64,000 bases of DNA, from positions 310,001 to 374,000 of the forward strand of contig NZ_AUHV01000004.1 of NCBI RefSeq assembly GCF_000423365.1, in the 5' to 3' direction. The notes below the pieces were generated by a model that was not told the DNA's origin, searched no databases, and was given only the letters and a program-made list of their open reading frames with translations. A program made the position numbers and the translations under genes. Origin of the DNA: Maritalea myrionectae DSM 19524. Lineage in GTDB: Bacteria; Pseudomonadota; Alphaproteobacteria; Rhizobiales; Devosiaceae. Below, piece after piece: positions 1-41,606 of the stretch; the stretch's first letter is position 1; every line of letters begins with the position of its first letter.

Positions 1-1
1 C

Positions 2-19706: not shown

Positions 19707-22700
19707 GTGCTATTCGCCTTCTCAATGAACTCGAAAGCTTGGGTGTGACCCTTCTTGTGCAAGATGGAAATCTGAAAGTGAAAGCGGCGAAGGGTGCAAT
19801 TTCACCAGAGCTTTTGCAGCAAATGAAGCAGCACAAACCCGCTTTGCTGTCTCTATTGCGATTGCGCCAAGGCCGGGATTATCCGCAATCGTTCAACCAG
19901 GCACAATTATGGTTTTTGGATCGGTTGGAGCCGAAAAACCCGCGTTATAACAATCCGCTCGCCTTTCGGATAAAGGGTGCATTGGATCAGGATGCCATGG
20001 GCAAGGCTTTTGATCTTATCGTTCAACGGCACAGTATTTTGCGCACAGTCTTTTTTGATCTTCAGGGTGAGCCGCGCCAGCGAGTTTTGCTGGAAAATGA
20101 TCGCGCCCTAGTTGTTATTGACCTGCAATCGGAGCCCGAAAAACTGGACGAAATCGTGCGCACAGAGGCGCAAACGGGTTTTGATCTGGAACAGGAAACG
20201 GCCATTCGCGCACAGCTTATAAAGCTGGGTGCGGACGGTCATGTCTTGCTGCTGAATGTGCATCATATATGCGCCGATGGCTGGTCTATTGGCATTTTAG
20301 TGGACGAAATTTTCAAGGCATATGAGGGGTTTGCCGCCAGCGAGATGCCCGAGTTTACACCGCTTCCGCTGCAATATGCAGAGTTTGCGGAAACGCAACG
20401 CAATAAATTATCGTCCGATGAAATGCAGCGGCAAGTTGATTATTGGCGGGCGGAACTGAGCGATGCGCCTGATTTGTTGGACTTGCCGACGGATCGACCC
20501 CGCCCAGCCGAACAATCAATGAATGGGGCCCATTTCCGCAATCTGATCGATGGTCCTTTATTCCAGGAAATTGACAATCTTTGCCAAAAGCTTCGCGTAA
20601 CACCGTTTGCGATTTTCCTGGCGGTGCATGCCTTGGTGATGGGGCGTTTTAGCGGGCAAAGCGATATTTGCACCGGCACGCCACTGGCCGGACGCGACCA
20701 GCAAGAGCTGGAAGGGCTTATTGGCCATTTTATCAATACAGTCGTTATTCGTGCGCAATTTGACGATCAGATGCAACTTGCTGATTTGGTTGCCCAAATG
20801 AACGACAAGGTGTTGGGCGCGATGGACCATCAGGATATTGCGTTTGAAAAAGTGGTTGAGGCAGTCAATCCAAAGCGCTCGGCCAGCTATTCACCGCTGT
20901 TTCAAACCATGCTGATTTTTCAAAATATGCCTGTGGGTGAGCAAGCCAATGGTGTGTTGGACATTTCGCCGATGGAGACAGACAGCGCCACGGCAAAATA
21001 TGACATCACCATCGAACTGTTTGAAAATCAGGATAATTTCCAGCTTGGCTTTGAATATAATAGCGACCTGTTTGATCAAAGCACGATTGAAAGCATGGCG
21101 CATGCGTTCACCCATGCCTTAAAGGCTGTGAGTTCAAGGCCGACCATTTCGGTAGGCGATATTGCGTTGATTGATCTTGATGCGTATCGCGCGCAACTGC
21201 ATGACACATCAGCGCTCGATGATGAACTTACCAGCATCCCTGCCCGTTTTTCCGAAGTTGTGACACAATTTCCGCAATCGCGTGCCGTTACGGATGCAAA
21301 GCAGCACCTTGATTTTGCTGAATTAGATGGGAAAGCGAACCAAGTCGCGCAGTTGCTTTCGTCGAAATCTATCCAAAAGGGAGACGTTGTCGCGCTCAGT
21401 GCAGAGGCTGGCTGTAATTATGTTGTCGCACTACTTGGCGTTCTCAAAGCAGGGGCAACTGCGCTGCCGCTTGATCCGAGCTTGCCAAGCGAACGCAAGC
21501 AGCAAATTTTGGCGGATGCACAAGCGAAACTGGTGTTTGCTTCGGGTGAAACTGCATTTGACGCTCCTGAAATTGTCGATTTGGAACAGTTACTGGCCGA
21601 ATTAGATGCATTTGCTGCAACGTCTCCTGCTGTTGAAATTGAAGCATCTGACAATGCGATTTTGATTTTCACCTCCGGCTCGACCGGCACCCCAAAGGGT
21701 ACATATGTCACTCATAAGGGGTTGGTTAATCTGGCGACTTGGACTGAAAGTGTATTTCCGCTCGGTGCGCAGGAAAGTGTTTTACAAAAGAGCGCTATTG
21801 GGTTTGACGCCAGTTTGTGGGAATTTTTCTGGCCCCTTCTTTCAGGTCATGAGTTGGTGTTGGCACAGGGGGATGCGCGGAAAAACCCCGCCCACCTGCA
21901 TGAGCTTGTGAATGCGCACCAGATCGCGGCCATTCAGTTTGTACCAGCAACACTGCAATTGTTTTTGGATGCGCTGCCGGAGCAAGGCAGCCACAGCCTG
22001 AAATATGTTTTTTGCGGTGGAGGCGCGCTGACAACAGATTTAGCGCGTTTGGTGACTGAGAAGCTACCCCAGGTTCAGTTGATCAATGTTTACGGCGTGA
22101 GCGAATGTGCAGTGGATTCTGCCTATCACATCTTTGATCCGGATCGAGATGACCATTTGCATGTGCCAATTGGCAAAGTGATTTCACGTACCAGCATTTG
22201 CTTGCTGGATGAGAAAGGCCTGCCTGTGCCACGTGGCGCTATTGGCGAAATCTGCATTGCTGGTGCTGGGGTTGGCAATGGCTATCATCAGCGGGATGAA
22301 CTCACGTCTAAGACTTTTATTGATCATCCGTATCTACCGCAGACCAAGCTATATCGCACTGGCGATTTGGGCGTAGAGAACAGAAACGGCGAACTTCGCT
22401 TTATTGGCCGCAAGGATTTTCAGCTCAAAATCAATGGCTTCCGCATAGAGCCTGGTGAAATTGAAGCCGGATTGCGGCGTTGTGGCTGCGCCCTTGCAGC
22501 TGTTATTGGCTGGCGAGACCAGCTGGTGGCATTTGTGCAAGGGGGCGATGAGCCTGACAATTTGCAAGCGGCGCTAAAGCAGTTTCTGCCCACCTATATG
22601 GTGCCGTCGATGATCATTCACCTTGACCAGTTGCCGCTAAATGCCAGCGGGAAGATTGATCGCAAGGCCCTGCCCGACCCGGCTGACTTTATGGCAAGCA

Positions 22701-23713
22701 ACGCGGTGAACCAAGCCAGCCCGCGCGATGACACCGAGATGAAGCTTTATCGCATTTGGAAGAATATTTTGCTGCATCCGACCATTGGCATTCGCGATAA
22801 TTTCTTTGCCATTGGCGGTAGCTCCATTTCCGCGATCAAAATGGTGCACCAGATCAAGGAAAGTTTTGGCGTGCAGTTGGCGCTGAAGAGCATCATCACC
22901 AGCCCGACCATTGAAGAGTTAGGCGCAATGCTGCGTGGCGATGCGGCGGAGCGGCAGGATGAAGATCATTTAATCACCCTGCAACCGGGCGATGGGTCGA
23001 CCAATGTGGTGTGCGTGCACCCCGCGGGCGGCACGGCATTTTGCTATCTGTCTCTGGCCAAAACTCTAGACGAAAATATCGGCGTTTATGGCCTGCAATC
23101 TATGGGTTTGAACGCCAATGAAGTGGCCTGCACGTCCGTTGAGGATATGGCGGCGCATTATCTCCCTTTAATCGAGCCCTTGATGGATCGACCGATGGTG
23201 ATCACCGGGCTGTCCTTCGGCGGTTTGGTCGCGCACGAGATGGGTCGCTTGCTGAGCGCCCGGGGCAAGCAAGACATTTCGGTGGTGTTGCTTGATACCC
23301 AAGGCACCCATGACGTTGAAGCGCGCCGAATGATTGATGTGGTGGATTTACCCGAATTCCGCGACAAGTTGGTGCGATTTAACGGCACCTATCCTGGCAT
23401 TGATGACGCTCAGATCGAGCGTTACTTCAATGTCTATAATCAAAACCGCTTGGCCGTGCGTGATTATGAAGTTCCGGTGAGCGGTGCGCGGATGGCATTT
23501 ATCCAAGCGCGCAGTGATCTGCCCCGCCCATTTTTGCATGAAACACGCGCCTATTGGCGCAGCCGCACTGACGGCGAATTTTCTGTGAAATTGGTGCGAG
23601 GAGATCATTGGGAAATGCTGGAAAGTGACGAGCTCAAGATCGTGAAAAATGTGATGTTGAAAGAGTTGGATGCCATCGCCCCGGCATCTGAACTGGAGGT
23701 GGCTAATGGATAA
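19703..23713 (+). CDS. Non-ribosomal peptide synthetase, docking-C-A-T-TE (terminal module)
   Basis: A 1336-aa protein. Residues 1-55 are a TubC-type docking domain (LLNELESLGVTLLVQDGNL, then KPALLSLL). The condensation motif is HHICADG (about residue 187), the adenylation core TSGSTGTPKG (about 657) and the carrier motif GGSSIS (about 1040). The C-terminal 240 residues are a type I thioesterase (HPAGGTAF, active-site GLSFGG near residue 1170, C-terminal GDHWEML with the likely catalytic His). It should add the last residue of the peptide line and release the product by hydrolysis or cyclisation. The specificity residues read D-A-W-Q-F-G-V-V-D-K, near Gln/Glu-type codes. A5 is atypical (NVYGVSEC). 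The preceding protein ends SEEVEEFEI, an acidic hydrophobic tail that fits docking to this N-terminus. The ATG overlaps the previous stop (ATGA). Confidence 0.95.
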   Translation: MSAIRLLNELESLGVTLLVQDGNLKVKAAKGAISPELLQQMKQHKPALLSLLRLRQGRDYPQSFNQAQLWFLDRLEPKNPRYNNPLAFRIKGALDQDAMGKAFDLIVQRHSILRTVFFDLQGEPRQRVLLENDRALVVIDLQSEPEKLDEIVRTEAQTGFDLEQETAIRAQLIKLGADGHVLLLNVHHICADGWSIGILVDEIFKAYEGFAASEMPEFTPLPLQYAEFAETQRNKLSSDEMQRQVDYWRAELSDAPDLLDLPTDRPRPAEQSMNGAHFRNLIDGPLFQEIDNLCQKLRVTPFAIFLAVHALVMGRFSGQSDICTGTPLAGRDQQELEGLIGHFINTVVIRAQFDDQMQLADLVAQMNDKVLGAMDHQDIAFEKVVEAVNPKRSASYSPLFQTMLIFQNMPVGEQANGVLDISPMETDSATAKYDITIELFENQDNFQLGFEYNSDLFDQSTIESMAHAFTHALKAVSSRPTISVGDIALIDLDAYRAQLHDTSALDDELTSIPARFSEVVTQFPQSRAVTDAKQHLDFAELDGKANQVAQLLSSKSIQKGDVVALSAEAGCNYVVALLGVLKAGATALPLDPSLPSERKQQILADAQAKLVFASGETAFDAPEIVDLEQLLAELDAFAATSPAVEIEASDNAILIFTSGSTGTPKGTYVTHKGLVNLATWTESVFPLGAQESVLQKSAIGFDASLWEFFWPLLSGHELVLAQGDARKNPAHLHELVNAHQIAAIQFVPATLQLFLDALPEQGSHSLKYVFCGGGALTTDLARLVTEKLPQVQLINVYGVSECAVDSAYHIFDPDRDDHLHVPIGKVISRTSICLLDEKGLPVPRGAIGEICIAGAGVGNGYHQRDELTSKTFIDHPYLPQTKLYRTGDLGVENRNGELRFIGRKDFQLKINGFRIEPGEIEAGLRRCGCALAAVIGWRDQLVAFVQGGDEPDNLQAALKQFLPTYMVPSMIIHLDQLPLNASGKIDRKALPDPADFMASNAVNQASPRDDTEMKLYRIWKNILLHPTIGIRDNFFAIGGSSISAIKMVHQIKESFGVQLALKSIITSPTIEELGAMLRGDAAERQDEDHLITLQPGDGSTNVVCVHPAGGTAFCYLSLAKTLDENIGVYGLQSMGLNANEVACTSVEDMAAHYLPLIEPLMDRPMVITGLSFGGLVAHEMGRLLSARGKQDISVVLLDTQGTHDVEARRMIDVVDLPEFRDKLVRFNGTYPGIDDAQIERYFNVYNQNRLAVRDYEVPVSGARMAFIQARSDLPRPFLHETRAYWRSRTDGEFSVKLVRGDHWEMLESDELKIVKNVMLKELDAIAPASELEVANG

Positions 23714-26700
23714 ACTCAACTCACTTGCTGAGCGTTTTTGCAAGATCGTCAAAAACTTTCCTGACCACATTGCCGTGGAGGATGGATCGACCAAACTAAC
23801 TTATCGAGCGCTCGATAAGCTAAGCGATCAGTTTGCCCATGGGCTCGGCGTCAAGAAGATTGAAGTTGGCGCAATTGTAGGGCTGATGTTGCCTCGGTCT
23901 TGGGAGCAAATTGTCGCCATCTTGGGCATTGTTAAAGCTGGTGCTGTGGCCGCGCCGCTAGACCGCCAAAGCCCCAAAAGTCGCATCAAGGAGATGGCAG
24001 AAGATATCGGCTGCGCCCTCATTCTGGCCCGCGACAAATCAACGAAGATTGGCGGGCAGCGCTGTGCTGTTTTTTCAAGCATTTTAGATGCGGGCAAGAA
24101 GAGTAAATTCAAAGCTCATGAGCGTTCAAAAGAAGCGCTTAGCTTTGTGTTTTTCACGTCAGGTTCGACCGGCAAGCCGAAAGCTGTTTTGGTGCCGGAA
24201 CGCGGTGTTCTGCGGCTGGGCATGCAAGGCTATATTCCCTTGGATGAAAATGTGCGTGTGGGACACATCTCTAATCCATCATTTGATGCGATAAATTTTG
24301 ATATTTGGGCGCCTTTACTGAACGGTGGGACTTGCGTTGTTTTCCCTGACGGCGCGTTTGATGATTTCGGCACTTTTTCAGCGCAACTCGCCGCCCAAAA
24401 AATCGACACCATGTTTATGACAGTAGCGCTGTTTAACGCGATTGTTGGCGAGCAGGAGCACTGCTTTGCGAACCTATCGTCCTTGTTGATTGGCGGCGAG
24501 CAAATCAACACGCAAACGGTTCTGAAATGGTATAAAACCAACTCGAAAAGCGATTGCACAATTTACAATGTGTATGGCCCCACCGAGTGCGCGACGTTCT
24601 CGCTGAACTATCCTATTCCTCGCAATGAAAAAGCCGCAAATGCGCCGATTGGGCGGCCACTTCCGGGCACGAAACTCGCCATTGTCGATGCTGATTTACA
24701 TATGTTAGAGGACGGCCAAAAAGGTGAGTTGCTTATTTCAGGTGACGCGGTGGCGCTCGGCTATCATGAGCGGCAGGAGCTGAATGATCAGGCCTTTGTG
24801 AAGCTGAACGGCAAGTTGCATTATCGCACCGGTGACCTGGTCCAACGCAACGCTGACGGCACGATCAGCTATGTCGGGCGCATTGGGCGACAGGTTAAGA
24901 TTCGCGGTTTTCGAGTGGAACCGGGCGAAATAGAGACCATTTTGAACCGCCACCACGCGATTGAAAATGCGCATGTATTGGCGGCAAAATCCACTTCTGG
25001 CACGCTTGAACTGCATGCTTTTGTGGTGCCTGCTGATGAAGTTACCATTGAGAGCCTTTACGCCTATCTGCAGGAGCATTTGCCTACATACATGGCGCCG
25101 CATCATTTTTATCGCCTGACGCATTTGCCAACTAATGCCAATGGTAAGATCGATCAAGATGCGTTGTTGGATGGCAGCCATCCGCGTTGGCAACGGGCAA
25201 GTTCTGCCGTGGACCTCACGCCTGAGGTCAAGGCGCTGCGCGACATCGCCGATGTTGTGTTGGAACAGCCAGATTTGGATGACACAATTACGTTTTTGAA
25301 CGCGGGTGGCGATAGCCTGTCGGCATTGCGATTCAAGCATCAAGTTGCGCGTGAACTCAATCTCTCACTTTCGATTGCAGACATTTTATCGCTACCGTTG
25401 AAGGATTTGCATGACAAATCCACTCCCATCGAGGATGCTTCACTGGTATTCAGACAGCCTCAAAACGGCACAAGCCCAGCGACAAGTGAGCAAAAACGGC
25501 TTTGGCTGGATGCGCAGCGCTATCCCGACTCACGGGCATATTCTGTGCCGCTGGTGTTTAAAATTGCAGGTCCAGTTGATGCAGAAAAACTAGAACACGC
25601 TTTCAATTCTCTTTTTAGACACCATGCTTCATTTCGCACGGCATATCGTGAGGTTGACGGTGAATTGATGCAGGTGGTGCTTGAGGAAAGCGCTTGCACG
25701 TTTGAATCGTTTCGGGCTGGGAAATATAAAGCGAAGGATTGGGAAGGCTTTGCCAAAGAACTATTTGGGCAAAATTTCGATTTGAGTGAGCCTTCGCTTT
25801 GCCGTGCCTGTTGGTTGCCATTTAATGGGCATGAAGGCGTTTTGCTGATCAATGCGCATCACATCCTATTGGACGGTTGGTCACTCGACTTGATGTTGCA
25901 GCAGCTTTCCTTCCTGTATAGCGGCGAATTGCTGCCAGAAGATGCTGGCCCTGAAATGGGGCAATTTGCATTCTGGCAGCGTGAGCACTATTCGACCGGC
26001 GCATATTTGGCCAAGCGCAAAGCGCTTTGTGATCTGTGGCTCGACGATGACAGCTCGTATGCTCCACTGCCCGCACAATGTGCATCCGATGACCAGGCGG
26101 CGTTTGTTACGCGAAAGTCTTTCGGGTCTAAGGCTGGGCAGATTGTGCGGCGTTGCGCTGCAACCTACAATGTGACCCCTTTTAACCTATATTTAGCGGC
26201 CTTCTCGCTGGCCTACGCCCATATCACCGGCCAACAGACGTTTAAGTTGGCAACGCCAGTAAGCAACCGATCAAATCCAACTTTTGCCAATACGATCGGC
26301 ATGATGGCCAACACCATGTTGCTGCCCGTTCATCTGGCGCCCGAACAGTCATTGCGTGACGTATTTGGAGCAAATTGGGCAAGTTGGGCGGAATTGTTGC
26401 AGTTTGATGATGTTGCCTTTGAGCATTTCATTGAAGATATAGCAGAAGCTGGCCGCGCTGACGCAGGCCGATTTGATGCGATGTTTGTGTTGGAAAACAC
26501 GGATTATGACCAACTTCAGCTGGCCCAGTGCAGAACACGCTTTGAAACACCCTCTCATGTGGATGGCAAGGCGCCGATCACGGCCTTTGTTTTGGAAACC
26601 GCTGATGGGCCAGAGCTGATTGTTGAAGCTCAGTCGCGGTATTTTACGCAGGACGATATTGATCGACTTTGCGACAGCTTTGCCAAAGCGCTTTACGGGT

Positions 26701-29700
26701 TGGCCGAATTAGACGCGCCGATAGAGCAATTTACACTGCCGCTCATTGATGAACTGTCTGCACCGAACACAGACGTTACGCCAAAAACTGTTGCTGAAAT
26801 GTTGCGAGAACAAGCGGCGCTGACGCCTTCTACAATTGCCGTTGTGGATGGGTATCACTGGCTGAGCTATCGCGCCCTCATCCAGCATTCATGGAAATTG
26901 ATTGATGAGCTGAACGCTCAACTAGGCGATCGTAAAGCTGGCGATGTGATCGGTGTTTATATTCAACCGTCGCGTGAACATATCGTTTCATTGATCGCGT
27001 TGGCGCAAATGAACATTACCATTTTGCCACTCGATCCCAGCTATCCGGACGATATGCTGCAACGCATTGTTGAGAAAGCAAAGCCGACGCTCATTCTCAC
27101 CCATCCCAAAGCTGAACCCCGCAGTTTTGCCGGTGTGGACGTCTATGAAGTCAACCTCAACCAGCCTTCGCAAAACAAACCCGCCTCACATGAGGGCAAA
27201 AACCCGCTTTATCTGCTTTACACATCTGGTTCGACAGGCGAACCGAAGGGTGTTTATGTGCCCGATGATGCATTATGCAATCTGCTTCAATGGCAAAAGC
27301 GGGAAGGCACATTGGCGAAAGCTGCTATCACTCAGCAATTCTCCAAACTGTCATTCGATGTAAGTTTTCAAGAGATTTTCACTACGCTCACAACGGGTGG
27401 CACCTTCCACATCATCGAACCTGAATTGAGGCAAGATCCAGCGATCTTGTTGGAAGAAATGCGCGACAATCGCATTGAACGCATTTTCCTGCCCTTTGTT
27501 GCCCTGAAGCTTTTGGCTGAAACCGCGCTTCGCGCCGGGATCATTTTGCCTTATCTGAAAGAAGTCGTTTCAGCAGGAGAAGAGCTGGTGAGTACGCCGG
27601 CGCTGAAAACCTGGTTCAAGAAATTGCCGCAAGCCCGGCTGATCAATCATTATGGGCCGAGCGAAACCCATGTGGTGAGTGCCTATAATCTGCCCGAAGA
27701 TGTGGATCAATGGCCCGACAGCGCACCAATTGGACGTCCGATTTCCAATGTTTCTTTCCGCATTACAAATGCCCAAGACAGCGAAGACGGGTCTGGTGAG
27801 CTACTGGTTTCTGGTGATTTTGTACGCCCCTGTTATGTCGATGACGAGGACAACCAAAAAGCATTTGAAACAGATTTAGACGGTCGTGTATGGTACAAAA
27901 CGGGAGATCGCGTTGCGGTGACCCGCAATTATCATTTTGCTTATCGTGGCCGTTTGGACAATCAAATCAAATTGTCCGGACATCGCATTGAACTGCAGCA
28001 GATTGAGGCAGTGCTAAACCGTATATCGGGTATCGCCCTGGCCATCGTTGTTCAAATATCTGACAATGAACTGACCTGCTTTTACGAGCCAAATGGTACA
28101 TTACCTGCACTGAACAAGGTGAACGCGCATCTATCTCGCCACCTGCCGGATTATGTGCGGATAAATAGCTTGGTGCCGATGGATAGCTGGCCCAAAACAC
28201 CCAGTGGGAAAATAGACCGCAAAAAACTGAAGCTGCAAAAAGCTTCCATCGAGCAACTTGGGGCAAACGACGCGAGGGAAACGTGGTCGAACCAGACAGA
28301 GCAACAGCTTGCTGATCTCTTTCGCGACATTATTCATCGTGAAATTCGACCGGAGCAAAGCTTCTTTGATGCGGGGGCGACAAGTTTAGACCTCATTCGC
28401 TATCGGGATGCCTGCCAATCAGCATTAGGCATTAGCCTGCCGGTTGCATTGCTTTTCCAGTATAGCAGCATTGAAAAGCTGGCACGGCATTTGGGACCGC
28501 AACAGGAAGCGCAAAGCGCACCGGAACCCAAGCAACGCACCAACCATGAGAAAATGGCAATTGTTGGCATATCGATTAGTGTTGCGGGCGCGGAAAACTA
28601 TGAATCGTTCACCGATTTGGTGGTGAATAATCGCACCGGTATTGAACGATTTAATGCGGAGAACGGCAAGGTTGGTGCCCGCAGTCAGCTCAAAAATATG
28701 ATGGGTTTTGATCCTGCTTATTTTGGCATTTCCAAACCCGAAGCCAAGCTGATGGATCCGCAGCAGCGTCACCTGCTTATGGGGGCAGTGCATTGTTTGC
28801 AGGACGCGGGTGTAAATCCCCAACGAGTGCAGGAACGCATCGGCGTGATGGCAAGTGCAGGTGAAAACACATATTTTCAAGATGCATTGCGCGGTGAGTA
28901 TGCTGCGGACTTGCCTGATAGTTTTCAAATGGCCCTGCACCACGACAAGGACTTTTTAGGCTCAAAAATCGCCTATCGCTTGGGGCTAACCGGTCCGGCA
29001 ATTGCGGTGCAGGCAGCCTGCGGCAGTTCATTGATTGGTTTACACATGGCCGCAGGCATGTTGCGCAACAATGATGCGGACATGATGCTGGTGGGTGGCT
29101 GCCTAATCGATGCCACTTTGCAAGACGGCTATAGCTATCGACCGCAGCATATTTTCTCAAAAGACGGGTTTTGTCGACCGTTTGACCAAGATGCCTCGGG
29201 GACTATTGGGGCCAGCGGATATGGATTTGTTTTGCTCAAGCCTTTGTCAAAGGCGATTGCCGACGGGCATAAAATCTATGCCGTGCTTGAGGGTTCGGCG
29301 ATCAATAATGATGGCCACGACAAAATGAGTTACACCGCACCTTCGGTGAAAGGACAAGCGTCCGTATTGAAGTTGGCGCTTATGGATGCAGGGCTGCAAC
29401 CAGATGATGTGTCGTTGATTGAAGCCCACGGCACAGGCACGGCTTTGGGTGACCCGATTGAAATTGAGGCGCTGCGACAGGCGTATGGCCCGCGCAAAAC
29501 CCAGCTCGCTGTGAGTTCATTGAAAAGCCAAATCGGCCATATGGGCGCTGCGGCGGGTTTGGTCGGGCTCATTCGGGCCATCGTTGCATTGCAAACGAAA
29601 AAGCTGCCGCCAAATCTAAACTTTAAACGATTGAACCCGGAGATCGACTTCGGTGACATGCCTTTGGTTTTCCCCGCGCGGAGTGAAGCCTGGAAAACTG

Positions 29701-32700
29701 ATGTGCTAAAGCGCGCCGCAGTGAGCAGCTTTGGGATTGGGGGCACAAATGCCCATGCCATTATTGGTGAACCAGCCCCCTACCCAGAAATGACAAAAGA
29801 TGTGCCACAAGCACTTTTGCTTTCAGCTCACAGCGCAACAAGTCTGCAGAAATGGGCGGCGCAGATTGCAGATTATTTAACTGCGCACCCCAACCGCCTC
29901 AATGACGCACTCCAATTCTTGCAATCTGGCACCCCGCATTTGCCTTATCGCACCGGGTTCCTGGTGACTGATGTCGCAAACGCCATTGAACAGTTGCGCG
30001 AAGTGACTGGCGGGAAGAAGGCGCACAGCCAAGCCCAAGTGTTTCTGCGTGATGACAATATGGAGGACGCGCTGACCGCTTGGCTTGACGGGGCAATGCT
30101 GGACATTGAACATGTCGTAGCGCCACGACCTGACGGCTTTCCACTTTATCCTTTTGACCTGCAACATTATGAGCTGTCGCGAAAGGCTGCGACATCGCCG
30201 GCAACAGGTTTTCAAGACATTGAACGCCTTAAGTCGGAACAATGGCTGCATGTACCTACATGGCAAAATTGCGGACGAGTTAGTCAAATTGGCACCCGCC
30301 GCGCGCTTGGCATTGTTTTGCATGCGGACGCTTTGACGCCAGAGGAAAAGCGGTGTTTTGAGCAGGCCTATCCAAAGGTCATTTTCGTAAAACATGGCGA
30401 AAAATTTGCGCAAACCGACACAAACGAATTCATTGCGTCTCTCTCGAGCGAAGATTTCTCCTGCATCGGTGCAAAGGCAAATGCGGACGCGCATTCACAA
30501 GTCGATATTATTCATTTCTCGCCAGCACAAATGGTACATGAGCTAACCACTCACAATCTGGACTTGGCCCAAACCTATTGTTTGGATGCCATACCACCTA
30601 TTTTAGCTTTGGCCGACCAGCTTAATGGAACAGATCTACGGGTTATTTGTGTTTCCAAAGAAGGTTCAGACTTATCGGGGCAGATCAACGCGCCGCTTTC
30701 TGGGCTGCTGGCCGGTGCCCAAACTGTGCTTTCATCTGAGCGTGACTTAAAGAGCTGTTGGATTGATCTAGAAGCGAACGATCTAAACGGTTTCGCGCCT
30801 ATCTTGATGGATGACGGCCTGACGCCTGGTCGATATGGCCTGCGCTATGGGTCGTTGTGGGCGAGGCAAAGGACTGCCGCACCTGCACCGATGCGGTCAG
30901 AACATCGCGGAACCGCGCAACAGACCTATTTGGTCATCGGAGCCAATGGCGGCATTGGGCGCAATATTTGTCGTGAGCTTTTGTCGGATGAAAATGTGCA
31001 TTTGGAGATCACAACACGAAGCGGCGATGTGCCGGGTGACCTTTTAGAATTCGCCGATCGAATAAATGCGCATCAGCTCGACCTCACAGATATGGAAGCA
31101 ACTTTGCCTCAACTCGATCAAAAAGAGATTGCAGGTGTTGTCTTTGCGGCAGGTGTGGCTTCAGGTGCGATGCTAACCCATCGTGATTCAGAGGAGATGC
31201 GCAGCTTAAACAGTGTGAAAATTCAAGGGCTTTTGAAACTTGAACGCTGGATTGAAACTCATCAGCCAAAGCGGGTGATCTATTGCTCCTCCATGAGTTC
31301 GGAATTTGGCGGCATTGGCCAGCTCGATTATGCTGCAACCAACGGATTGATGGATAGCTTTGCTTTTTGGGTTAATCCTCAATCGCCGCATACAATCCGA
31401 ACCACCATCAATTGGGATATTTGGCGCGAAAGTGGCATGGCGATTTCGGCCCTGCATCACGATGTAACTCACCAACAGCATTTGGCCTTTGGGTTGAGTG
31501 ACCAAGAGGGCAGAGACATTTTCAAGCGGTGTCTTAACACCACTCGCCCTCAAATCATGGTGTCAACTGTTGCGCTGGAGCACGCGAAACGCTTTTACTC
31601 ACCCGCGTCGACAACAGAAAACAGAGCGACCGACGCCCATGATGATCCGGCAATATTTGTTGTTGAGGCGATTGCGCACCTTGTTGGTGCCGATCAGGTC
31701 GAGGCCTCGCAACGCTTGGATGAGTTGGGGCTCGACTCGCTCGCCACTCTTGATTTGATTGACGACATCAAATCAAAATTTGATGTTGCGCTGTCATTGT
31801 CGGATTTACCGCCCTCTTTACAGGTGTCGGCGTTGATCAACTTGATCAACGAAAAAAGCCATAAGCCAGACATCGCAGCCATATTGCAGACAATCCTGGC
31901 TGAACTGTTAGGCAGCGATGATTTTTCAGTGTCCAACTCATTTGGCGAACTGGGCTTGGACTCGTTGATGGCGCTCGATATGATTGACGAAATCAAGAAG
32001 CGTTTCGGCATTCAATTGCCCCTCTCCGCATTTCATGATGAGGCAACACTGAATGATGTTGTTCAATATGTCGTCGAGGATATTGAAAACCGACACGAGG
32101 CACCCGATGCCATGCAACAGGCAGTAACGGTAGATTGTTGGCAAAAGGGAAATGGCACCAAAAGCATCTGTTTTGTCCATCCTGTCGGCGGTGAAACAGC
32201 CTCCTATCGTGCAATTTTCCAAAGATTGCCCAAGTCCATTTCTGTGTTTGCCATATCTGATCCCAATTTGCGCCAAGAACCGGGCCAGAGCTTTGGCATT
32301 AAAAGCCGGGCAAAGGCCTATTTACAAGCACTTGATGAAAAAACCGGCGGCGAACGCAGTCAGTTAGAGCTTGTTGGTTGGTCGTTTGGCGGCTGGGTGG
32401 CACAAGAAATGTGTCGACTTGCGGAACAAGAAGAACATGCCATCGGCTATCTTACAATGATCGACCCGCCCGAACCCGATTGTGGCACCCAAGTCAGCGT
32501 TCACTCGAAAGAGGATATTCAAGAGGCATTTCTCTACGATTTGGCACCGCGCTTGAAGCATACGCACGACGATCGAGTTTCTTTGAAAAGCCAAATTGCG
32601 CCGGAACTGCAGGTGCATCTGGATAATCTTGTGCGCTGCTGCCAGCTGAATATGGCAGCCATGCGCGACCATTCGCCGGGCGAGCTTGAACAAACCAAGG

Positions 32701-32918
32701 TGCATCTATTCATCGCCAATGATGTCGCCGAAGGATTGCTGGTGAACCCAATTCAGCCAACAGAACACGTGCAAAAATGGAAGGAACGCTTGGCCAAAAT
32801 AACGCACGGTGCCGTGCTGCAGGCAGATCATTATTCGATCATGCAATCACCGAATATCGAGCAGATCATAGATCAGTTCTTTTCAGATCAAAGCCAGCCC
32901 ATTAGAGTGCCGAGCTGA
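23706..32918 (+). CDS. Hybrid NRPS-PKS, A-T-C-A-T-KS-KR-ACP-ACP-TE, no acyltransferase
   Basis: A 3070-aa hybrid. I chose ATG 23706 because GGAGG sits 6 nt upstream and the adenylation domain begins at once; an upstream in-frame start at 23670 would lie inside the previous gene. A1 core TSGSTGKPKA (about residue 150), code D-A-F-F-L-G-V-T-F-K (branched aliphatic type); carrier GGDSLS (about 536). Condensation HHILLDG (about 718); A2 core TSGSTGEPKG (about 1173), code D-V-Q-F-V-A-H-V-V-K (proline type); carrier GATSLD (about 1560). KS runs from about 1615 to 2030, with Cys in AACGSSL (about 1772) and His in EAHGTGT and IGHMGAAAG. A linker with a YPF motif follows and no acyltransferase is seen. 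The ketoreductase (about 2400-2640) has GANGGIG and YAATN. Two carriers with GLDSL (about 2678 and 2753) precede a thioesterase (GWSFGG about 2892, His about 3042). Expected chemistry is aliphatic residue, then Pro, then a reduced C2 extension. The acyl donor must be loaded in trans. Confidence 0.95.
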   Translation: MDKLNSLAERFCKIVKNFPDHIAVEDGSTKLTYRALDKLSDQFAHGLGVKKIEVGAIVGLMLPRSWEQIVAILGIVKAGAVAAPLDRQSPKSRIKEMAEDIGCALILARDKSTKIGGQRCAVFSSILDAGKKSKFKAHERSKEALSFVFFTSGSTGKPKAVLVPERGVLRLGMQGYIPLDENVRVGHISNPSFDAINFDIWAPLLNGGTCVVFPDGAFDDFGTFSAQLAAQKIDTMFMTVALFNAIVGEQEHCFANLSSLLIGGEQINTQTVLKWYKTNSKSDCTIYNVYGPTECATFSLNYPIPRNEKAANAPIGRPLPGTKLAIVDADLHMLEDGQKGELLISGDAVALGYHERQELNDQAFVKLNGKLHYRTGDLVQRNADGTISYVGRIGRQVKIRGFRVEPGEIETILNRHHAIENAHVLAAKSTSGTLELHAFVVPADEVTIESLYAYLQEHLPTYMAPHHFYRLTHLPTNANGKIDQDALLDGSHPRWQRASSAVDLTPEVKALRDIADVVLEQPDLDDTITFLNAGGDSLSALRFKHQVARELNLSLSIADILSLPLKDLHDKSTPIEDASLVFRQPQNGTSPATSEQKRLWLDAQRYPDSRAYSVPLVFKIAGPVDAEKLEHAFNSLFRHHASFRTAYREVDGELMQVVLEESACTFESFRAGKYKAKDWEGFAKELFGQNFDLSEPSLCRACWLPFNGHEGVLLINAHHILLDGWSLDLMLQQLSFLYSGELLPEDAGPEMGQFAFWQREHYSTGAYLAKRKALCDLWLDDDSSYAPLPAQCASDDQAAFVTRKSFGSKAGQIVRRCAATYNVTPFNLYLAAFSLAYAHITGQQTFKLATPVSNRSNPTFANTIGMMANTMLLPVHLAPEQSLRDVFGANWASWAELLQFDDVAFEHFIEDIAEAGRADAGRFDAMFVLENTDYDQLQLAQCRTRFETPSHVDGKAPITAFVLETADGPELIVEAQSRYFTQDDIDRLCDSFAKALYGLAELDAPIEQFTLPLIDELSAPNTDVTPKTVAEMLREQAALTPSTIAVVDGYHWLSYRALIQHSWKLIDELNAQLGDRKAGDVIGVYIQPSREHIVSLIALAQMNITILPLDPSYPDDMLQRIVEKAKPTLILTHPKAEPRSFAGVDVYEVNLNQPSQNKPASHEGKNPLYLLYTSGSTGEPKGVYVPDDALCNLLQWQKREGTLAKAAITQQFSKLSFDVSFQEIFTTLTTGGTFHIIEPELRQDPAILLEEMRDNRIERIFLPFVALKLLAETALRAGIILPYLKEVVSAGEELVSTPALKTWFKKLPQARLINHYGPSETHVVSAYNLPEDVDQWPDSAPIGRPISNVSFRITNAQDSEDGSGELLVSGDFVRPCYVDDEDNQKAFETDLDGRVWYKTGDRVAVTRNYHFAYRGRLDNQIKLSGHRIELQQIEAVLNRISGIALAIVVQISDNELTCFYEPNGTLPALNKVNAHLSRHLPDYVRINSLVPMDSWPKTPSGKIDRKKLKLQKASIEQLGANDARETWSNQTEQQLADLFRDIIHREIRPEQSFFDAGATSLDLIRYRDACQSALGISLPVALLFQYSSIEKLARHLGPQQEAQSAPEPKQRTNHEKMAIVGISISVAGAENYESFTDLVVNNRTGIERFNAENGKVGARSQLKNMMGFDPAYFGISKPEAKLMDPQQRHLLMGAVHCLQDAGVNPQRVQERIGVMASAGENTYFQDALRGEYAADLPDSFQMALHHDKDFLGSKIAYRLGLTGPAIAVQAACGSSLIGLHMAAGMLRNNDADMMLVGGCLIDATLQDGYSYRPQHIFSKDGFCRPFDQDASGTIGASGYGFVLLKPLSKAIADGHKIYAVLEGSAINNDGHDKMSYTAPSVKGQASVLKLALMDAGLQPDDVSLIEAHGTGTALGDPIEIEALRQAYGPRKTQLAVSSLKSQIGHMGAAAGLVGLIRAIVALQTKKLPPNLNFKRLNPEIDFGDMPLVFPARSEAWKTDVLKRAAVSSFGIGGTNAHAIIGEPAPYPEMTKDVPQALLLSAHSATSLQKWAAQIADYLTAHPNRLNDALQFLQSGTPHLPYRTGFLVTDVANAIEQLREVTGGKKAHSQAQVFLRDDNMEDALTAWLDGAMLDIEHVVAPRPDGFPLYPFDLQHYELSRKAATSPATGFQDIERLKSEQWLHVPTWQNCGRVSQIGTRRALGIVLHADALTPEEKRCFEQAYPKVIFVKHGEKFAQTDTNEFIASLSSEDFSCIGAKANADAHSQVDIIHFSPAQMVHELTTHNLDLAQTYCLDAIPPILALADQLNGTDLRVICVSKEGSDLSGQINAPLSGLLAGAQTVLSSERDLKSCWIDLEANDLNGFAPILMDDGLTPGRYGLRYGSLWARQRTAAPAPMRSEHRGTAQQTYLVIGANGGIGRNICRELLSDENVHLEITTRSGDVPGDLLEFADRINAHQLDLTDMEATLPQLDQKEIAGVVFAAGVASGAMLTHRDSEEMRSLNSVKIQGLLKLERWIETHQPKRVIYCSSMSSEFGGIGQLDYAATNGLMDSFAFWVNPQSPHTIRTTINWDIWRESGMAISALHHDVTHQQHLAFGLSDQEGRDIFKRCLNTTRPQIMVSTVALEHAKRFYSPASTTENRATDAHDDPAIFVVEAIAHLVGADQVEASQRLDELGLDSLATLDLIDDIKSKFDVALSLSDLPPSLQVSALINLINEKSHKPDIAAILQTILAELLGSDDFSVSNSFGELGLDSLMALDMIDEIKKRFGIQLPLSAFHDEATLNDVVQYVVEDIENRHEAPDAMQQAVTVDCWQKGNGTKSICFVHPVGGETASYRAIFQRLPKSISVFAISDPNLRQEPGQSFGIKSRAKAYLQALDEKTGGERSQLELVGWSFGGWVAQEMCRLAEQEEHAIGYLTMIDPPEPDCGTQVSVHSKEDIQEAFLYDLAPRLKHTHDDRVSLKSQIAPELQVHLDNLVRCCQLNMAAMRDHSPGELEQTKVHLFIANDVAEGLLVNPIQPTEHVQKWKERLAKITHGAVLQADHYSIMQSPNIEQIIDQFFSDQSQPIRVPS

Positions 32919-33004
32919 TAATGGGGGAAACGCGACCACTTCATCCAAAAGCAAGGCTTGCAGATTTGGTGGTGCGGCTGGTTCTGGGGAGGACATCAAC
33001 CACA

Positions 33005-34570
33005 ATGATCAGGAGAATTTTGGCAGGCATCGCCCTGGTGTTTTTTGTGGCCGCATCAGCGCAGGCGCAACACACATTGCGCGTGGCTTATGATGCGGAT
33101 CCGGTTTCGCTTGATCCATATGAGCAGCTTTCTGGCGGCACATTGCAATTGTCCCACCTTATTTTCGATCCCTTGGTGCGTTGGACACAGGACCATCAGT
33201 TTGAGGCACGGTTAGCAGAAAGATGGGAATATTTGGATGATCGCACAATGCGGTTCTATTTGCGCAAAAATATTGTTTTTCATAGCGGCAATGAGCTTAC
33301 CGCAAACGATGTGGAGTGGACCTTCAACCGCTTGAAAAAAAGCGGTGATTTCAAAGCTATTTTTGAACCGTTCAAATCCATAGAAGTGGTCAACGATCAT
33401 GTGTTTGATGTGCGGATGGATCAACCCTACCCGCTTGTTCTTCATTCTATGACCTATCTGTTTCCCATGGACCGAGCGTTTTATTCAGGCAAAACCGCAG
33501 ATGGCAAAGACAAAGCCGAGATTGTGAAACATGGCAATAGTTTCTCCTCCCGCAATGCGTCAGGCACCGGACCGTTTACTGTGACCGAGCGCGAACAAGG
33601 TGTGCGAAGTGTTTTTGCGCGATTTGATGATTATTGGGACGATGCCAGCATGGGGAATGCGGGCAATGTTGACCAAATCATTTTGACACCCATCAAAGAG
33701 GATTCCACGCGCCTTGCCGCCCTGCTCTCAGGCGCAGTGGACTTTATTGCCCCAGTGGCACCTTCCAACCTGCAAAATGTTGCGGAACACCCCGAAACGA
33801 AGCTGATCACGATGCCGGGCACGCGCGCGATCACGTTCCAACTCAATATGGGCCGTGTGCCTGCATTCAGAAATGTAAGAGTTCGGCAGGCTGTTGATTA
33901 TGCCATTAACAATGCGGGGATTGTTGATCGAATTATGCACGGTTTTGCGACGGTGAGCGCGCAGATGAGTCCGGCAGGCTATCCCGGCCATATCGAGGAA
34001 TTGGTACCGCGATTTGACGTTGAAAAAGCTAAGCAACTTATGGCTGATGCCGGTTATGCCGATGGATTGGACGTCACCATGCTGGCGCCGCACAACCGCT
34101 ATGTGAATGATGAACGTATTGCCCAAGCTGTGGCGCTGATGCTGAGCAAAATCAATATAAATGTTGACCTGCAAACCATCCCCAAAGCGCAATATTGGAC
34201 CCAATATGATGCGCGGGCCGCAGATATGATGATGATTGGCTGGCATTCTGACACTGAGGACAGCGCCAATTTCCATCAATTTCTTACGGCATGTCCGAAC
34301 GAGGAAACCGGGCAAGGCCGATATAACTCGTCTGGCTATTGCAATCCCTATGCTGACGAGCTGATGCGGCGCGCTAATTCCGAGATGGATAAAGACGAAC
34401 GCACCAAGTTGCTGCGGCAGCTGGAACAGATCTTGTTCGATGATGCAGCTTTTGTCCCGCTACATTGGCAAAATTTGGCTTGGGGCGTGCGCGAGGGCAT
34501 TTTGGCTGAGGATATCGTGAATGCACAAAATGCTCCCTATTTTGGCGACCTTGTGATGGAGCCAAACTAA
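33005..34570 (+). CDS. Peptide-type ABC transporter, periplasmic substrate-binding protein (SBP_bac_5)
   Basis: Captures a peptide-like ligand in the periplasm for the permeases encoded next. The family is recognised from the N-terminal LRVAYDADPVSLDPY segment, the LSHLIFDPLVRW and LAERWEY stretches, and a length of 521 aa typical of DppA/OppA proteins. I chose ATG 33005 because it is followed directly by a clean Sec signal peptide (MIRRILAGIALVFFVAASA-QAQ) and preceded by GGGGAGG about 12 nt upstream. An in-frame ATG at 32921 would add 28 polar residues before the signal. The gene lies 86 nt after the hybrid NRPS-PKS gene on the same strand, with no terminator seen between them. The ligand cannot be read from sequence; dipeptides, oligopeptides, nickel or opine-type metallophores are all known for the family. 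Confidence 0.92.
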   Translation: MIRRILAGIALVFFVAASAQAQHTLRVAYDADPVSLDPYEQLSGGTLQLSHLIFDPLVRWTQDHQFEARLAERWEYLDDRTMRFYLRKNIVFHSGNELTANDVEWTFNRLKKSGDFKAIFEPFKSIEVVNDHVFDVRMDQPYPLVLHSMTYLFPMDRAFYSGKTADGKDKAEIVKHGNSFSSRNASGTGPFTVTEREQGVRSVFARFDDYWDDASMGNAGNVDQIILTPIKEDSTRLAALLSGAVDFIAPVAPSNLQNVAEHPETKLITMPGTRAITFQLNMGRVPAFRNVRVRQAVDYAINNAGIVDRIMHGFATVSAQMSPAGYPGHIEELVPRFDVEKAKQLMADAGYADGLDVTMLAPHNRYVNDERIAQAVALMLSKININVDLQTIPKAQYWTQYDARAADMMMIGWHSDTEDSANFHQFLTACPNEETGQGRYNSSGYCNPYADELMRRANSEMDKDERTKLLRQLEQILFDDAAFVPLHWQNLAWGVREGILAEDIVNAQNAPYFGDLVMEPN

Positions 34571-34627
34571 TGCCAACTCCTAATTTTCAACATATCGCGC
34601 GACGGCGCCAAAGCATTTCAAACTAGT

Positions 34628-35578
34628 ATGATTATCTATTTAGCAAAACGTTTTTTCCAGGCGATATTGGTGCTGGTGGTCATTTCACTGATCGGATTCG
34701 CCGTGCAAGATAGTCTGTCGCCGCAACAGGCCGTTGGTGCGATCCAAACGGCGCAAAATATTGAAGAAACGGGTTTTGCCGAGAGATATTTCCACTTTTT
34801 GTCCGGCGTAGTGCAAGGCGATTTAGGCACCAGCTATTTTTTCAAAGAGCCCGCGCTCGAGGTGATTTTAAAAAAGATGCCTGCCACGCTTGAGTTGATG
34901 TTCGCCGCCGCCCTAATTGTTGCGGCACTGTCGGTGCCATTTGGGGTTTTCACCGCTCTTTATCCAAACCATATGTTGAGCCGGTTTATATTGAGCGCCT
35001 CAATTTTGGGGCTTTCAATTCCGGTTTTCGTGACGGGGATTTTGCTTATTTATCTTTTCTCAGTCGAATGGAGTGTGCTGCCCTCGTTCGGACGTGGCCA
35101 GATTGTCCCTATTGTTGGATATTGGGAGACCAACTTCGCCTCACTTGATGGGCTTAAGCACATCATCTTGCCGGCACTGGCGTTGGCGTCAATCATGTTG
35201 CCGTTGTTCATACGTCTTATCCGCGCTGAAATGCGTCAGGTCCTCAAAAGCGAATATGTAAAATATGCGCGCGCCCGTGGCCTTTCGCCTTTCCGCATTT
35301 ATTTTGTACATGCACTTAAAAACACACTTTTGCCTGTGGTCACGGTGGGTGGCATTCAAATTGGCACCCTTGTGGCTTACACGATTTTAGCGGAGACCAT
35401 TTTCCAATGGCCAGGTATGGGGTTCATGTTTCTTGAGGCGGTCAATCGCGGAGATGCGCCTCTGATTGTGGCTTATTTGATGGTCGTGGGTGCAATCTTC
35501 GTCGTGATCAATACCCTTGTTGATGTGCTTTACGGCCTGATAAACCCAACAATAGATATGGCGAGGATGGGCGCGTGA
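34628..35578 (+). CDS. Peptide-type ABC transporter permease (DppB-like)
   Basis: An inner-membrane subunit of 316 aa in the binding-protein-dependent transport family. It has an N-terminal membrane segment (FFQAILVLVVISLIGFAV) and several later hydrophobic spans. The cytoplasmic EAA-type loop (EYVKYARARGLSPFRIYF) contacts the ATPases. It is shorter in its first periplasmic loop than E. coli DppB but otherwise standard. It follows the binding protein by 57 nt and overlaps the second permease by 4 nt (GTGA), so the subunits are probably made together. Confidence 0.92.
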   Translation: MIIYLAKRFFQAILVLVVISLIGFAVQDSLSPQQAVGAIQTAQNIEETGFAERYFHFLSGVVQGDLGTSYFFKEPALEVILKKMPATLELMFAAALIVAALSVPFGVFTALYPNHMLSRFILSASILGLSIPVFVTGILLIYLFSVEWSVLPSFGRGQIVPIVGYWETNFASLDGLKHIILPALALASIMLPLFIRLIRAEMRQVLKSEYVKYARARGLSPFRIYFVHALKNTLLPVVTVGGIQIGTLVAYTILAETIFQWPGMGFMFLEAVNRGDAPLIVAYLMVVGAIFVVINTLVDVLYGLINPTIDMARMGA

Positions 35579-36513
35579 GCGATCAGAATATGCCGGCCTA
35601 TGCCAGAGTGTTCACAAGCAATTTGTCGCTCAATTTGCGGCACAACCCCGTCGCGTTTATCTCACTTGCCATTTTCCTCTTGCTGTTTTTGCTCGCCCTC
35701 TTCGCGCCGCTTATTGCGCCATACAATCCGTTTGATACGACGCAAATTGATATTTTAGACAGTGAACTGCCTCCGTTTTGGGCCGAGCAATCGGACCCTT
35801 CCTTTTTGTTTGGCACAGATGGTCAAGGGCGCGACATGTGGTCGATTATGCTTTATGGGCTGCGCCTCTCTCTAATGATTGGCATTGGTGCGGTGGTGGT
35901 GCAAACGCTGCTCGGGGTAAGCATTGGCTTGATCAGCGGCTATGTGGGCGGTCGGTTGGATAGTTTGCTGATGCGATTGGCCGACATTCAATTGTCTTTT
36001 TCGACCTTGATGGTCGCCATCGTGTTTTTGGCGGTGACCCAAGTTGTGGGTGGTCGTGCCTTTTTTGCTCAATATGCCCCTGTGTTGCTGATCACCATCA
36101 TCGGCCTGGCGGAATGGCCGCAATATGCGCGCACGGTGCGCGCCACAGTGCTGGCGGAGAAACAAAAGGAATATGTGGATGCCGCACGCATCATGGGGTT
36201 TGGCCCTCTGCGGATCATGGTGCGCCACATTTTGCCGAACTCGCTATCATCAATTTTCGTTATCTCTACAATTCAAATCGCCAATGCGATTATTGCGGAA
36301 GCATCTCTCAGCTTCTTGGGCTTGGGGATGCCGATCGCCTATCCGTCACTTGGCTCTTTGATCTCAAGCGGCTTTGATTATCTTTTCTCGGGCAGTTGGT
36401 GGATCACAACCTTGCCGGCCGCGCTGCTCGTGGTACTGATACTTGTTGTGAACCTTTTGGGTGATTGGCTTCGCGATACAATCGGTCCCCGCATTCTGCA
36501 GGGAGCTCGCTAA
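35575..36513 (+). CDS. Peptide-type ABC transporter permease (DppC-like)
   Basis: The second inner-membrane subunit, 312 aa, with a GTG start inside the stop of the previous gene. The N-terminal cytoplasmic part (LRHNPVAFISLAIFLLLFL) runs into the first membrane span, followed by the DppC-type segment FGTDGQGRDMWS. The EAA-type loop is EYVDAARIMGFGPLRIMVRH. It pairs with the DppB-like protein to form the channel. Its stop shares one base with the ATG of the first ATPase gene (TAATG). Confidence 0.92.
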   Translation: MSDQNMPAYARVFTSNLSLNLRHNPVAFISLAIFLLLFLLALFAPLIAPYNPFDTTQIDILDSELPPFWAEQSDPSFLFGTDGQGRDMWSIMLYGLRLSLMIGIGAVVVQTLLGVSIGLISGYVGGRLDSLLMRLADIQLSFSTLMVAIVFLAVTQVVGGRAFFAQYAPVLLITIIGLAEWPQYARTVRATVLAEKQKEYVDAARIMGFGPLRIMVRHILPNSLSSIFVISTIQIANAIIAEASLSFLGLGMPIAYPSLGSLISSGFDYLFSGSWWITTLPAALLVVLILVVNLLGDWLRDTIGPRILQGAR

Positions 36514-37496
36514 TGGCGCTTTTATCTGTTCAAGACTTGAGTGTGAAGTTTGGAGGCGAGTTTGGCGCTGTCTCTGCGGTCAAAAATGTTTCTTTTGACC
36601 TTCATCGCGGGGAGCGGCTGGGCATCGTCGGAGAATCTGGAGCGGGCAAATCAATTACCGGCTTCGCTTTGATGAACTTACTGAGCGCTCCCGGCTTTAT
36701 CAATCGTGGCAAGGTTTTGTTTGATGGCAAAGACATTGTGCGCATGAGCGAGCGCCAATTGCGCAAGGTGCGTGGCAACCGCATGGCCATGATTTTTCAA
36801 GATCCATTAGTGACGCTCAATCCAGTTTTGACCATTGGTCAGCAAATGATTGAAACACTTCTGGCTCATCGACGTTTGCGACGTGATGAGGCCGAGTTCA
36901 TCGCCATTCAGAAATTGCGCGAAGTCTATATATCGTCGCCCGAAATGCGCATGTCGCAATATCCGCATGAGCTTTCGGGTGGGATGCGTCAACGCGTGAT
37001 CATAGCCATTGCGCTATTGCTTGATCCTGATTTGATCATTGCCGACGAACCCACGACCGCACTCGACGTGACCACGCAGGCCGACATTCTGGAACTATTG
37101 CTGCATTTGTGCATGTCGAACAATGTTAGCCTTATCCTCATTACACATGATCTCGGGGTTGTTTGTCAGCTTACAGAACGCATTATGGTTATGTATGCGG
37201 GGGAAGTTGTTGAAACCGGCAAAACCCGCGAAGTGATCAACGACCCGCAACATCCCTACACACAGGGATTAATCTCAGCACTGCCGCAACAGACTTTGCC
37301 GGGTCATACGCTCAAATCGATTAAGGGTTATATGCCGTCGCTTTTGTCGATGCCTTCGGGGTGTCCGTTCCATCCGCGTTGCGCGTACGCCCTTGATGAA
37401 TGCCGGGAGCACCGCCCCAAACTTGTGCATTATCGCGATGCATCGGTGGCTTGCCATGAGGTCAATCGTCTGCATCAAGAAACCTTAGCGGAATGA
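36513..37496 (+). CDS. Peptide-type ABC transporter ATP-binding protein (DppD-like)
   Basis: An ATPase of 327 aa that drives transport. Walker A is GESGAGKS, the signature is LSGGMRQR and Walker B is LIIADEPTTALD. The C-terminal oligopeptide-transporter extension carries the cysteine-containing GCPFHPRCAYALDEC segment typical of DppD/OppD. I chose ATG 36513, which overlaps the previous stop and has GGGAG just upstream; a start at 36465 would lie inside the permease gene. Confidence 0.93.
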   Translation: MALLSVQDLSVKFGGEFGAVSAVKNVSFDLHRGERLGIVGESGAGKSITGFALMNLLSAPGFINRGKVLFDGKDIVRMSERQLRKVRGNRMAMIFQDPLVTLNPVLTIGQQMIETLLAHRRLRRDEAEFIAIQKLREVYISSPEMRMSQYPHELSGGMRQRVIIAIALLLDPDLIIADEPTTALDVTTQADILELLLHLCMSNNVSLILITHDLGVVCQLTERIMVMYAGEVVETGKTREVINDPQHPYTQGLISALPQQTLPGHTLKSIKGYMPSLLSMPSGCPFHPRCAYALDECREHRPKLVHYRDASVACHEVNRLHQETLAE

Positions 37497-37509
37497 GGAC
37501 ATCACAATA

Positions 37510-38517: not shown

Positions 38518-38549
38518 CCACCCACACATTACTGAGATGGATTAAAGCG

Positions 38550-39458: not shown

Positions 39459-39653
39459 AAACCGTTGCAGGCGGGTAACTGCGTGCGCCCCAAATTCGAT
39501 GTCACGCAGACAAGATTGCGCTCGACAACCACGAAATTGGTCTGGCTGTGCGACCATAAGGCACACAAAAACATACTGTTTAGGGTTTTATCATGCGCAT
39601 AATCGGTTAGGGTTCTCGTATTAAGTGCGTTCTATTATCTCAAAATCCACCAT

Positions 39654-39672: not shown

Positions 39673-39686
39673 TGACAGGAAAACAA

Positions 39687-40847: not shown

Positions 40848-40859
40848 GCGTTCGTCCGC

Positions 40860-41510: not shown

Positions 41511-41606
41511 TTTATCCAACCCCAGTATGCCTTAGAAAAAATCGAAAAAAAGCGGGTTGTGATTTTTTATTTGCCGTGATTAGGGTACGCGGAATTCTGT
41601 TGAACA

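Follow-up and report, generated by a model that had tools for sequence, protein, structure and literature searches.

The window, meaning the whole 64,000-nucleotide stretch of Maritalea myrionectae DSM 19524 DNA that was analysed, carries five consecutive NRPS genes on its + strand. The last of them, NRPS5, encodes an NRPS-PKS hybrid and is followed by genes for a peptide importer and a LysR-type regulator. The features referred to below, in window coordinates, are:

1..3106, + strand: NRPS1, in-window part; its longest frame begins upstream at G000:C3:308220, and the whole protein is A-T-C-A-T, 1628 aa
3106..9483, + strand: NRPS2, TubC-type dock-C-A-T-C-A-T; second A code Gly-like
9480..19706, + strand: NRPS3, three C-A-T modules and a C-terminal nitroreductase-type oxidase; codes Arg-, Pro- and Cys-like
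19703..23713, + strand: NRPS4, TubC-type dock-C-A-T-TE; A code Gln-like; putative ester-forming release module
23706..32918, + strand: NRPS5, 3070 aa, assigned from Pfam matches and residues as the signature NRPS-PKS hybrid of a detoxin/rimosamide-like (DRL) cluster
23748..25148, + strand: NRPS5 A1, presumably aliphatic code DAFFLGVTFK
25467..26705, + strand: NRPS5 C domain, HHILLDG
26793..28205 (borders approximate), + strand: NRPS5 A2, proline code DVQFVAHVVK
28548..30014, + strand: NRPS5 KS and C-terminal linker
30924..31430, + strand: NRPS5 KR, catalytic part
31593..31805 (borders approximate), + strand: NRPS5 ACP1, an extra carrier found in two Maritalea proteins only
31884..32072, + strand: NRPS5 ACP2, the carrier common to all 14 DRL hybrids compared
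32166..32879, + strand: NRPS5 TE
33014..34570, + strand: SBP_bac_5 peptide-binding protein of an Opp/Dpp-type importer; start chosen by comparison with G005, another genome of the genus, a longer frame running from 32921
34628..38517, + strand: two permeases and two ATPases (OppB, C, D, F type)
38550..39458, + strand: LysR-type regulator, final gene of the insertion described below

The NRPS5 reading frame is open from 23670 to 32918. The protein starts at the ATG at 23706, which is preceded by GGAGG, and the gene overlaps the end of NRPS4 (stop 23713) by 8 bases. Pfam matched two AMP-binding domains, one condensation domain, the N and C parts of a KS, one KR, four PP-binding domains and one thioesterase in NRPS5, in the order A-T-C-A-T-KS-KR-ACP-ACP-TE. 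No condensation domain ahead of the first A domain and no acyltransferase (AT) were found in NRPS5 by Pfam. The preliminary description had given this domain order for 23706-32918, with an initial A domain lacking a C domain, a TE of its own and no AT, and was confirmed on all these points. Among PDB sequences, those closest to the KS came from both AT-less and AT-containing polyketide synthases.

Specificity codes were read from a MAFFT alignment. The A1 code, DAFFLGVTFK, is one that we take to be aliphatic, and the A2 code, DVQFVAHVVK, is one position apart from that of the ppp-type protein (DVQFIAHVVK). According to PMC11796379, the code of the second A domain of PppD is consistent with proline. 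The aliphatic and proline codes called earlier were thus borne out, and the prediction was not refuted by the A-domain specificity that had been named as a possible objection to it, since the second A domain carries the proline code. All catalytic residues of NRPS5 are in place: the Ser of T1 and T2, HHILLDG, the Cys/His/His of the KS, SYN in the KR, the Ser of both ACPs, and the Ser (GWSFGG) and His of the TE. The same codes and residues recur in the NRPS5 of G005, which is 74% identical, indicating that they are not due to chance. With these codes and intact residues, a Val/Ile-Pro unit extended by a reduced C2, as previously proposed, is well supported as a prediction.

NRPS1-4 together contain eight A domains, and all 8 condensation-domain matches in the genome fell inside the five NRPS genes. 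The codes of peptide modules 4-8 presumably mean Gly, Arg, Pro, Cys and Gln; with modules 1-3 left as X, the full order is X, X, X, Gly, Arg, Pro, Cys, Gln. The third C domain of NRPS3 has a Cy-like D motif. The C domain of NRPS1, in the first extension module, has the motif EHHIVHDG, which is the signature of ureido-forming C domains according to PMC11212132. NRPS4, like NRPS5, ends in a TE. Upstream of NRPS1, genes for an MFS protein, a GSCFA protein and a 220-aa protein lie on one strand, and those for a TauD protein, a 218-aa protein, a PPTase and a type II TE lie on the opposite strand. Pfam gave no match for the 220-aa protein (SGNH-like by its published counterpart) or the 218-aa protein.

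This gene set was compared with that of two ppp-type genomes of the same taxonomic order, one of them G378; the arrangement of their cluster genes agrees with that published for ppp, and we infer both to be Pseudovibrio. Identities to the ppp-type counterparts were 63% for TauD, 49% for GSCFA, 35% for the SGNH-like protein, 43% for NRPS3 (PppB) and 44% for NRPS4 (PppC). The 218-aa protein matched only weakly (31% over 108 residues). PPTase, TEII and MFS genes are also common to both clusters. The Maritalea cluster therefore has the DRL dioxygenase (TauD family, PipE/PppK), the DRL trio of GSCFA, SGNH and a protein of unknown type (PipDFG/PppHIJ), its third member being a weak match. It also has a second NRPS line, whose terminal TE, on NRPS4, is a candidate for esterifying the product of the hybrid.

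Protection of Bacillus cereus from blasticidin S is a trait associated with the products of DRL clusters, and antidote activity has been described for pseudovibriamide B (PMC12911931). In the ppp system, a ureido heptapeptide is made by PppABC, and PppD gives an NRPS-PKS product. Mutants without pppD, or without pppH, I or J, retained only PA, a pppA mutant retained PC, and hydroxylation of the proline required PppK (PMC11796379). The PppD product has been seen alone as pseudovibriamide C and is the proposed ester partner of the peptide from the neighbouring NRPS genes (PMC11796379, PMC12911931). In the pip system, PipC has no AT and its ACP is loaded by FabD in trans, the ester is formed by the PipB TE, and the last acetylation is assigned to PipDFG (PMC12828459).

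Taken together, NRPS5 is very probably the signature hybrid of a DRL cluster with a ppp-like peptide line and gene set, operating by the pathway given below (probability about 0.92). The A codes were of one type in 14/14 aligned DRL hybrids, and the catalytic residues were intact in all nine DRL hybrids examined. The resemblance to the detoxinine core pointed out in the preliminary description was right. Its term 'self-contained' was an overstatement for the last of five NRPS genes whose neighbours match ppp, where the PppD product is the proposed ester partner. The novelty seen in an alphaproteobacterial, AT-free protein also did not hold: PppD comes from an alphaproteobacterium (PMC11796379), and according to PMC12828459 none of the PipC homologues encoded in known DRL clusters has an AT. 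NRPS5 is a known kind of enzyme, and the chemistry that had seemed novel is published for its counterparts. The idea of a separate assembly line making a novel C2-extended product was rejected because the DRL family has already been published. No paper linking Maritalea to a DRL-type cluster was found among those listed in the literature searched; one that contained both terms deals with hopanoids, judging by its title.

By analogy with the published homologues, from which every catalytic step and the product are drawn, NRPS5 would load Val or Ile and condense it with Pro. The prolyl thioester would be extended with malonyl given in trans, most likely by housekeeping FabD, and the KR would reduce the ketone to a beta-hydroxy acid. 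A single PF00698 acyltransferase match was found in the genome (E up to 0.01). It lies at a distance of 1.6 kb from a FabF-sized KS, consistent with FabD being the trans-acting AT. NRPS1-4 would assemble roughly eight residues into a ureido-linked peptide with the C-terminal run Gly-Arg-Pro-thiazole-Gln. The TE of NRPS4 would esterify this peptide onto the hydroxyl of the NRPS5 product, which the NRPS5 TE would then release. The ring of the proline would be hydroxylated by TauD and O-acylated by the trio of GSCFA, SGNH-like and 218-aa proteins. The codes and the ureido motif thus predict a compound in which a peptide of eight residues, related to pseudovibriamide A, forms an ester with a Val/Ile-Pro-C2 unit. 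For the homologue, the non-hydroxylated Val-Pro-C2 and Ile/Leu-Pro-C2 forms were reported at m/z 259.166 and 273.182 (PMC11796379). Ketide extension, whose lack in the product was the other objection named beforehand, has been reported for the homologues.

NRPS5 might instead make a short product as its sole purpose, never joined to the NRPS1-4 peptide, which its possession of both a loading A domain and a TE would allow. In addition, pseudovibriamide C (PC) is still formed in the ppp system after pppA deletion (PMC11796379), and Microbulbifer has a homologous gene, yet its extended congeners were not detected according to PMC10616845. We nevertheless regard this as very improbable, since NRPS5 overlaps NRPS4, since NRPS4, NRPS5 and the tailoring genes occur together in two Maritalea species and the ppp-type genomes, and since the homologous Pseudomonas system no longer gave full-length products when PipB had lost its TE or the serine of that TE (PMC12828459). 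Within the DRL reading, assignment to the ppp subtype is based on the peptide line and the gene content and not on NRPS5, because NRPS5 is only 38% identical to the ppp-type hybrid (over 2915 positions) and did not group with the ppp-type pair. In a tree built from nine hybrids, the two Maritalea proteins branched apart from a group comprising the ppp-type, G731 and Streptomyces hybrids (support 81/86, long branches flagged). Both results speak against regarding NRPS5 itself as an ortholog of PppD.

The traits shared with the ppp cluster of Pseudovibrio brasiliensis are the aliphatic and proline codes, the AT-less hybrid, the TE-terminated NRPS line, and the TauD, trio, PPTase, TEII and MFS genes as neighbours. 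Also shared are the ureido C domain in the first extension module and the module run Gly-Arg-Pro-Cys-Gln, with an Arg-Pro-Cys(thiazole, Ox)-Gln section and a nitroreductase-type domain. For Arg-Pro-Cys-Gln, the Maritalea codes equal or closely resemble their ppp-type counterparts. In G378, the seven A codes of the peptide line presumably mean Tyr, Thr, Gly, Arg, Pro, Cys and Gln. They fit the published pseudovibriamide order: pseudobulbiferamide is Phe1-Dhb2-Gly3-Arg4-Pro5-Thz6-Gln7, and in pseudovibriamides Tyr replaces Phe1 (PMC10616845). Modules 4-8 of the Maritalea line agree with residues 3-7 of pseudobulbiferamide in this order. In contrast to ppp, with seven peptide modules in three genes, Maritalea has eight in four. 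Its hybrid has tandem ACPs, an importer and LysR are attached, and the PPTase and TEII genes lie at the opposite side of the cluster. The ppp cluster is on a plasmid, whereas the Maritalea cluster lies beside a tRNA-Lys on a large contig with housekeeping genes.

The pip cluster of Pseudomonas entomophila likewise has an AT-less KS-KR-ACP-TE arrangement (PipC), a TE-terminated NRPS partner, the oxygenase PipE and the PipDFG trio. Its partner is a tetrapeptide, whereas that of Maritalea would have eight residues; the PipH acetyltransferase is absent among the Maritalea genes given to Pfam, and FabD loading is experimental in pip but predicted for Maritalea. The mbp (pseudobulbiferamide) cluster of Microbulbifer also combines a ureido peptide line with thiazole and a hybrid, MbpD. 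Unlike that of Maritalea, it is plasmid-borne and has seven modules, and the extended product was not detected (PMC10616845). On the Streptomyces plasmids NBC_01558 and NBC_01176, the hybrid gene is followed directly by GSCFA, hypothetical and TauD genes and is directly preceded by a single NRPS gene (1326-1371 aa), no others being listed in the stretch.

The doubled carrier domain, the eight-module ureido-type line, and the importer and LysR within the insertion are new details of the Maritalea cluster. Eight modules are not claimed as exclusive to Maritalea: in G1136, presumed to belong to the genus Pseudovibrio, an extra 1099-aa NRPS gene lies at G1136:C4:34036-37335, and an eighth module may exist there. 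In an alignment of 14 DRL hybrids (2 from Maritalea, 8 from other genomes and 4 from plasmid records), tandem ACPs were present in the two Maritalea proteins and in none of the other 12, where KR and a single carrier are followed by the TE within 111-140 residues of the KR, compared with 190 in Maritalea. Of 11 segments compared between the two Maritalea species, the extra ACP1 showed the lowest conservation (33% vs 65% for ACP2). This would be expected if it were a degenerate, functionless duplicate in a protein behaving exactly like PppD, a reading that is plausible but which we do not favour, as the modifiable serine is kept in both carriers in both species. With its tandem ACP, the protein is a natural system for asking whether doubling the carrier makes a difference to an AT-less module.

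Complete matches to a KS-to-TE query were obtained in 2/61 relatives, a set including all 6 genomes of the genus, two of which contain the cluster. An A2-to-TE query (E up to 1e-150) matched 3/397 genomes of the order, 3/385 of the class and 2/398 of the phylum sample, each count including the window's own genome, and 6/87 genomes in the family of G378, G378 included. G005 has the whole cluster in the same order, its NRPS3 and NRPS4 being 92-93% identical. In a scan of genome contigs with an A2-KS query, Maritalea mobilis had a matching locus (82% identity, equal to the value for G005 in the query alignment, so that G005 may be this species and the window another Maritalea); the other three of the four loci in that scan (24-30% identity) were dropped as not being true relatives. 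A known class of antibiotic antagonists or signals is thus extended to Maritalea (Devosiaceae), a further alphaproteobacterial genus, as an insertion beside a tRNA-Lys.

The insertion was recognized from G001, which lacks the cluster and is the genome in which the empty site was read. Here a left-flank 307-aa gene (no Pfam match) and the tRNA-Lys directly neighbour the right-flank patatin gene, indicating that the genes from the type II TE through LysR represent one insertion or, less likely, one loss. The distance between glmU and pgi was 3.8-15 kb in four cluster-free genomes and 54-55 kb in the two carriers, the contig of G004 being short. The tRNA-Lys(TTT) (L009:5379-5454) forms the left edge of the insertion in both carriers and is also present at the empty site of G001. 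No direct repeat of the tRNA 3' end was found in the window with up to 3 mismatches allowed, and none of the ORFs given to Pfam, which were part of all ORFs, matched an integrase family. At the DNA level, identity to G005 was 80-91% in NRPS2-4, fell to 67-80%, with parts hardly alignable, at about 28000-43000 of the window, and was 80-92% afterwards. The low-identity stretch spans the KS part of NRPS5, the importer, the patatin gene and an MFS gene, and looks as if it came from a more divergent allele.

Between NRPS5 and the patatin gene lie those for the SBP, two permeases, two ATPases and LysR. No NCBIfam match at the cut-off was obtained for the importer or LysR (for the ATPases and LysR, among the best 25 matches). 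A promoter and terminator scan of 32700-39800 gave 7 and 9 sites, compared with 7.2 and 8.6 in shuffled sequences, and was therefore uninformative; it contained no + strand terminator-like site between NRPS5 and SBP. Most likely, the importer and LysR are passengers with an ordinary role in peptide uptake. Importer relatives (SBP 59-69%) occurred without NRPS genes in all five contexts read (G520, G874, G921, G934 and Phaeobacter pP14_a, the G870 match being left out; pP14_a was the one record opened among 206 plasmid records with an SBP match), and a related LysR followed in three of the five.

Other DRL clusters agree with a passenger role, since an importer of this type adjoined none of those read. 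No importer operon was found next to seven other clusters (G378, G354, G731, G1128, G1129, G1136 and G917), several of whose contigs end nearby. In G917, two SBP_bac_5 genes are on the cluster's contig about 17 kb or more away, and G1131, which also matched the A2-to-TE query, was left out of this reading. Four DRL plasmid records, whose gene tables are incomplete, list no importer; one has a lone substrate-binding protein several genes off. Near the DRL cluster of G960, a complete importer lies at a distance of 1.6 kb from the cluster's type II TE, with frames of 275 and 198 aa between them, the first GntR-like by eye. At first this seemed to be independent support, but the binding protein is 74% identical to Maritalea importers located elsewhere, indicating that such nearness can arise by chance. 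The importer as a general DRL component was thus not borne out.

What speaks against a mere passenger is that an SBP ortholog (83%) occurs in both cluster carriers and in none of the four non-carriers of the genus, whose best matches reach 28-31%, and that the operon directly follows NRPS5 within the stretch absent at the empty site. The importer and LysR could conceivably form a receptor branch, in which SBP would bind the depsipeptide or its fragments, the importer would return them to the cytoplasm and LysR would read them; or the importer could be a DRL-insensitive copy of the transporter type that DRL compounds are thought to block. Both are unlikely, and because the importer stands alone elsewhere we offer the receptor role only as a hypothesis. 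As a candidate DRL receptor or target, the importer is concrete but has weak support; the ppp receptor is described as unidentified in PMC11796379, and the molecular targets of the pip products in B. cereus and in the producers are still to be identified according to PMC12828459.

Several observations were made on related genes. DRL-type hybrids are encoded on Serratia proteamaculans and S. marcescens plasmids typed as conjugative (L073:19995-28925 and L076:13399-22341). Their second A code is slightly different (DVQFVAMVV), and GSCFA and TauD are absent from the listed annotation, which is possibly incomplete. The DRL cluster of G731, another genome of the phylum, has two adjacent TauD-type oxygenases (L060:7481-9294; G731:C1:252481-254294) with 54% and 47% identity to the Maritalea TauD. 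The latter (L009:7824-8699; G000:C3:303824-304699) is identical at 291/291 residues in both Maritalea species despite 78/876 base differences, the remaining cluster proteins compared between the two being 74-96% identical, which suggests that the TauD sequence may be under unusually strong constraint.
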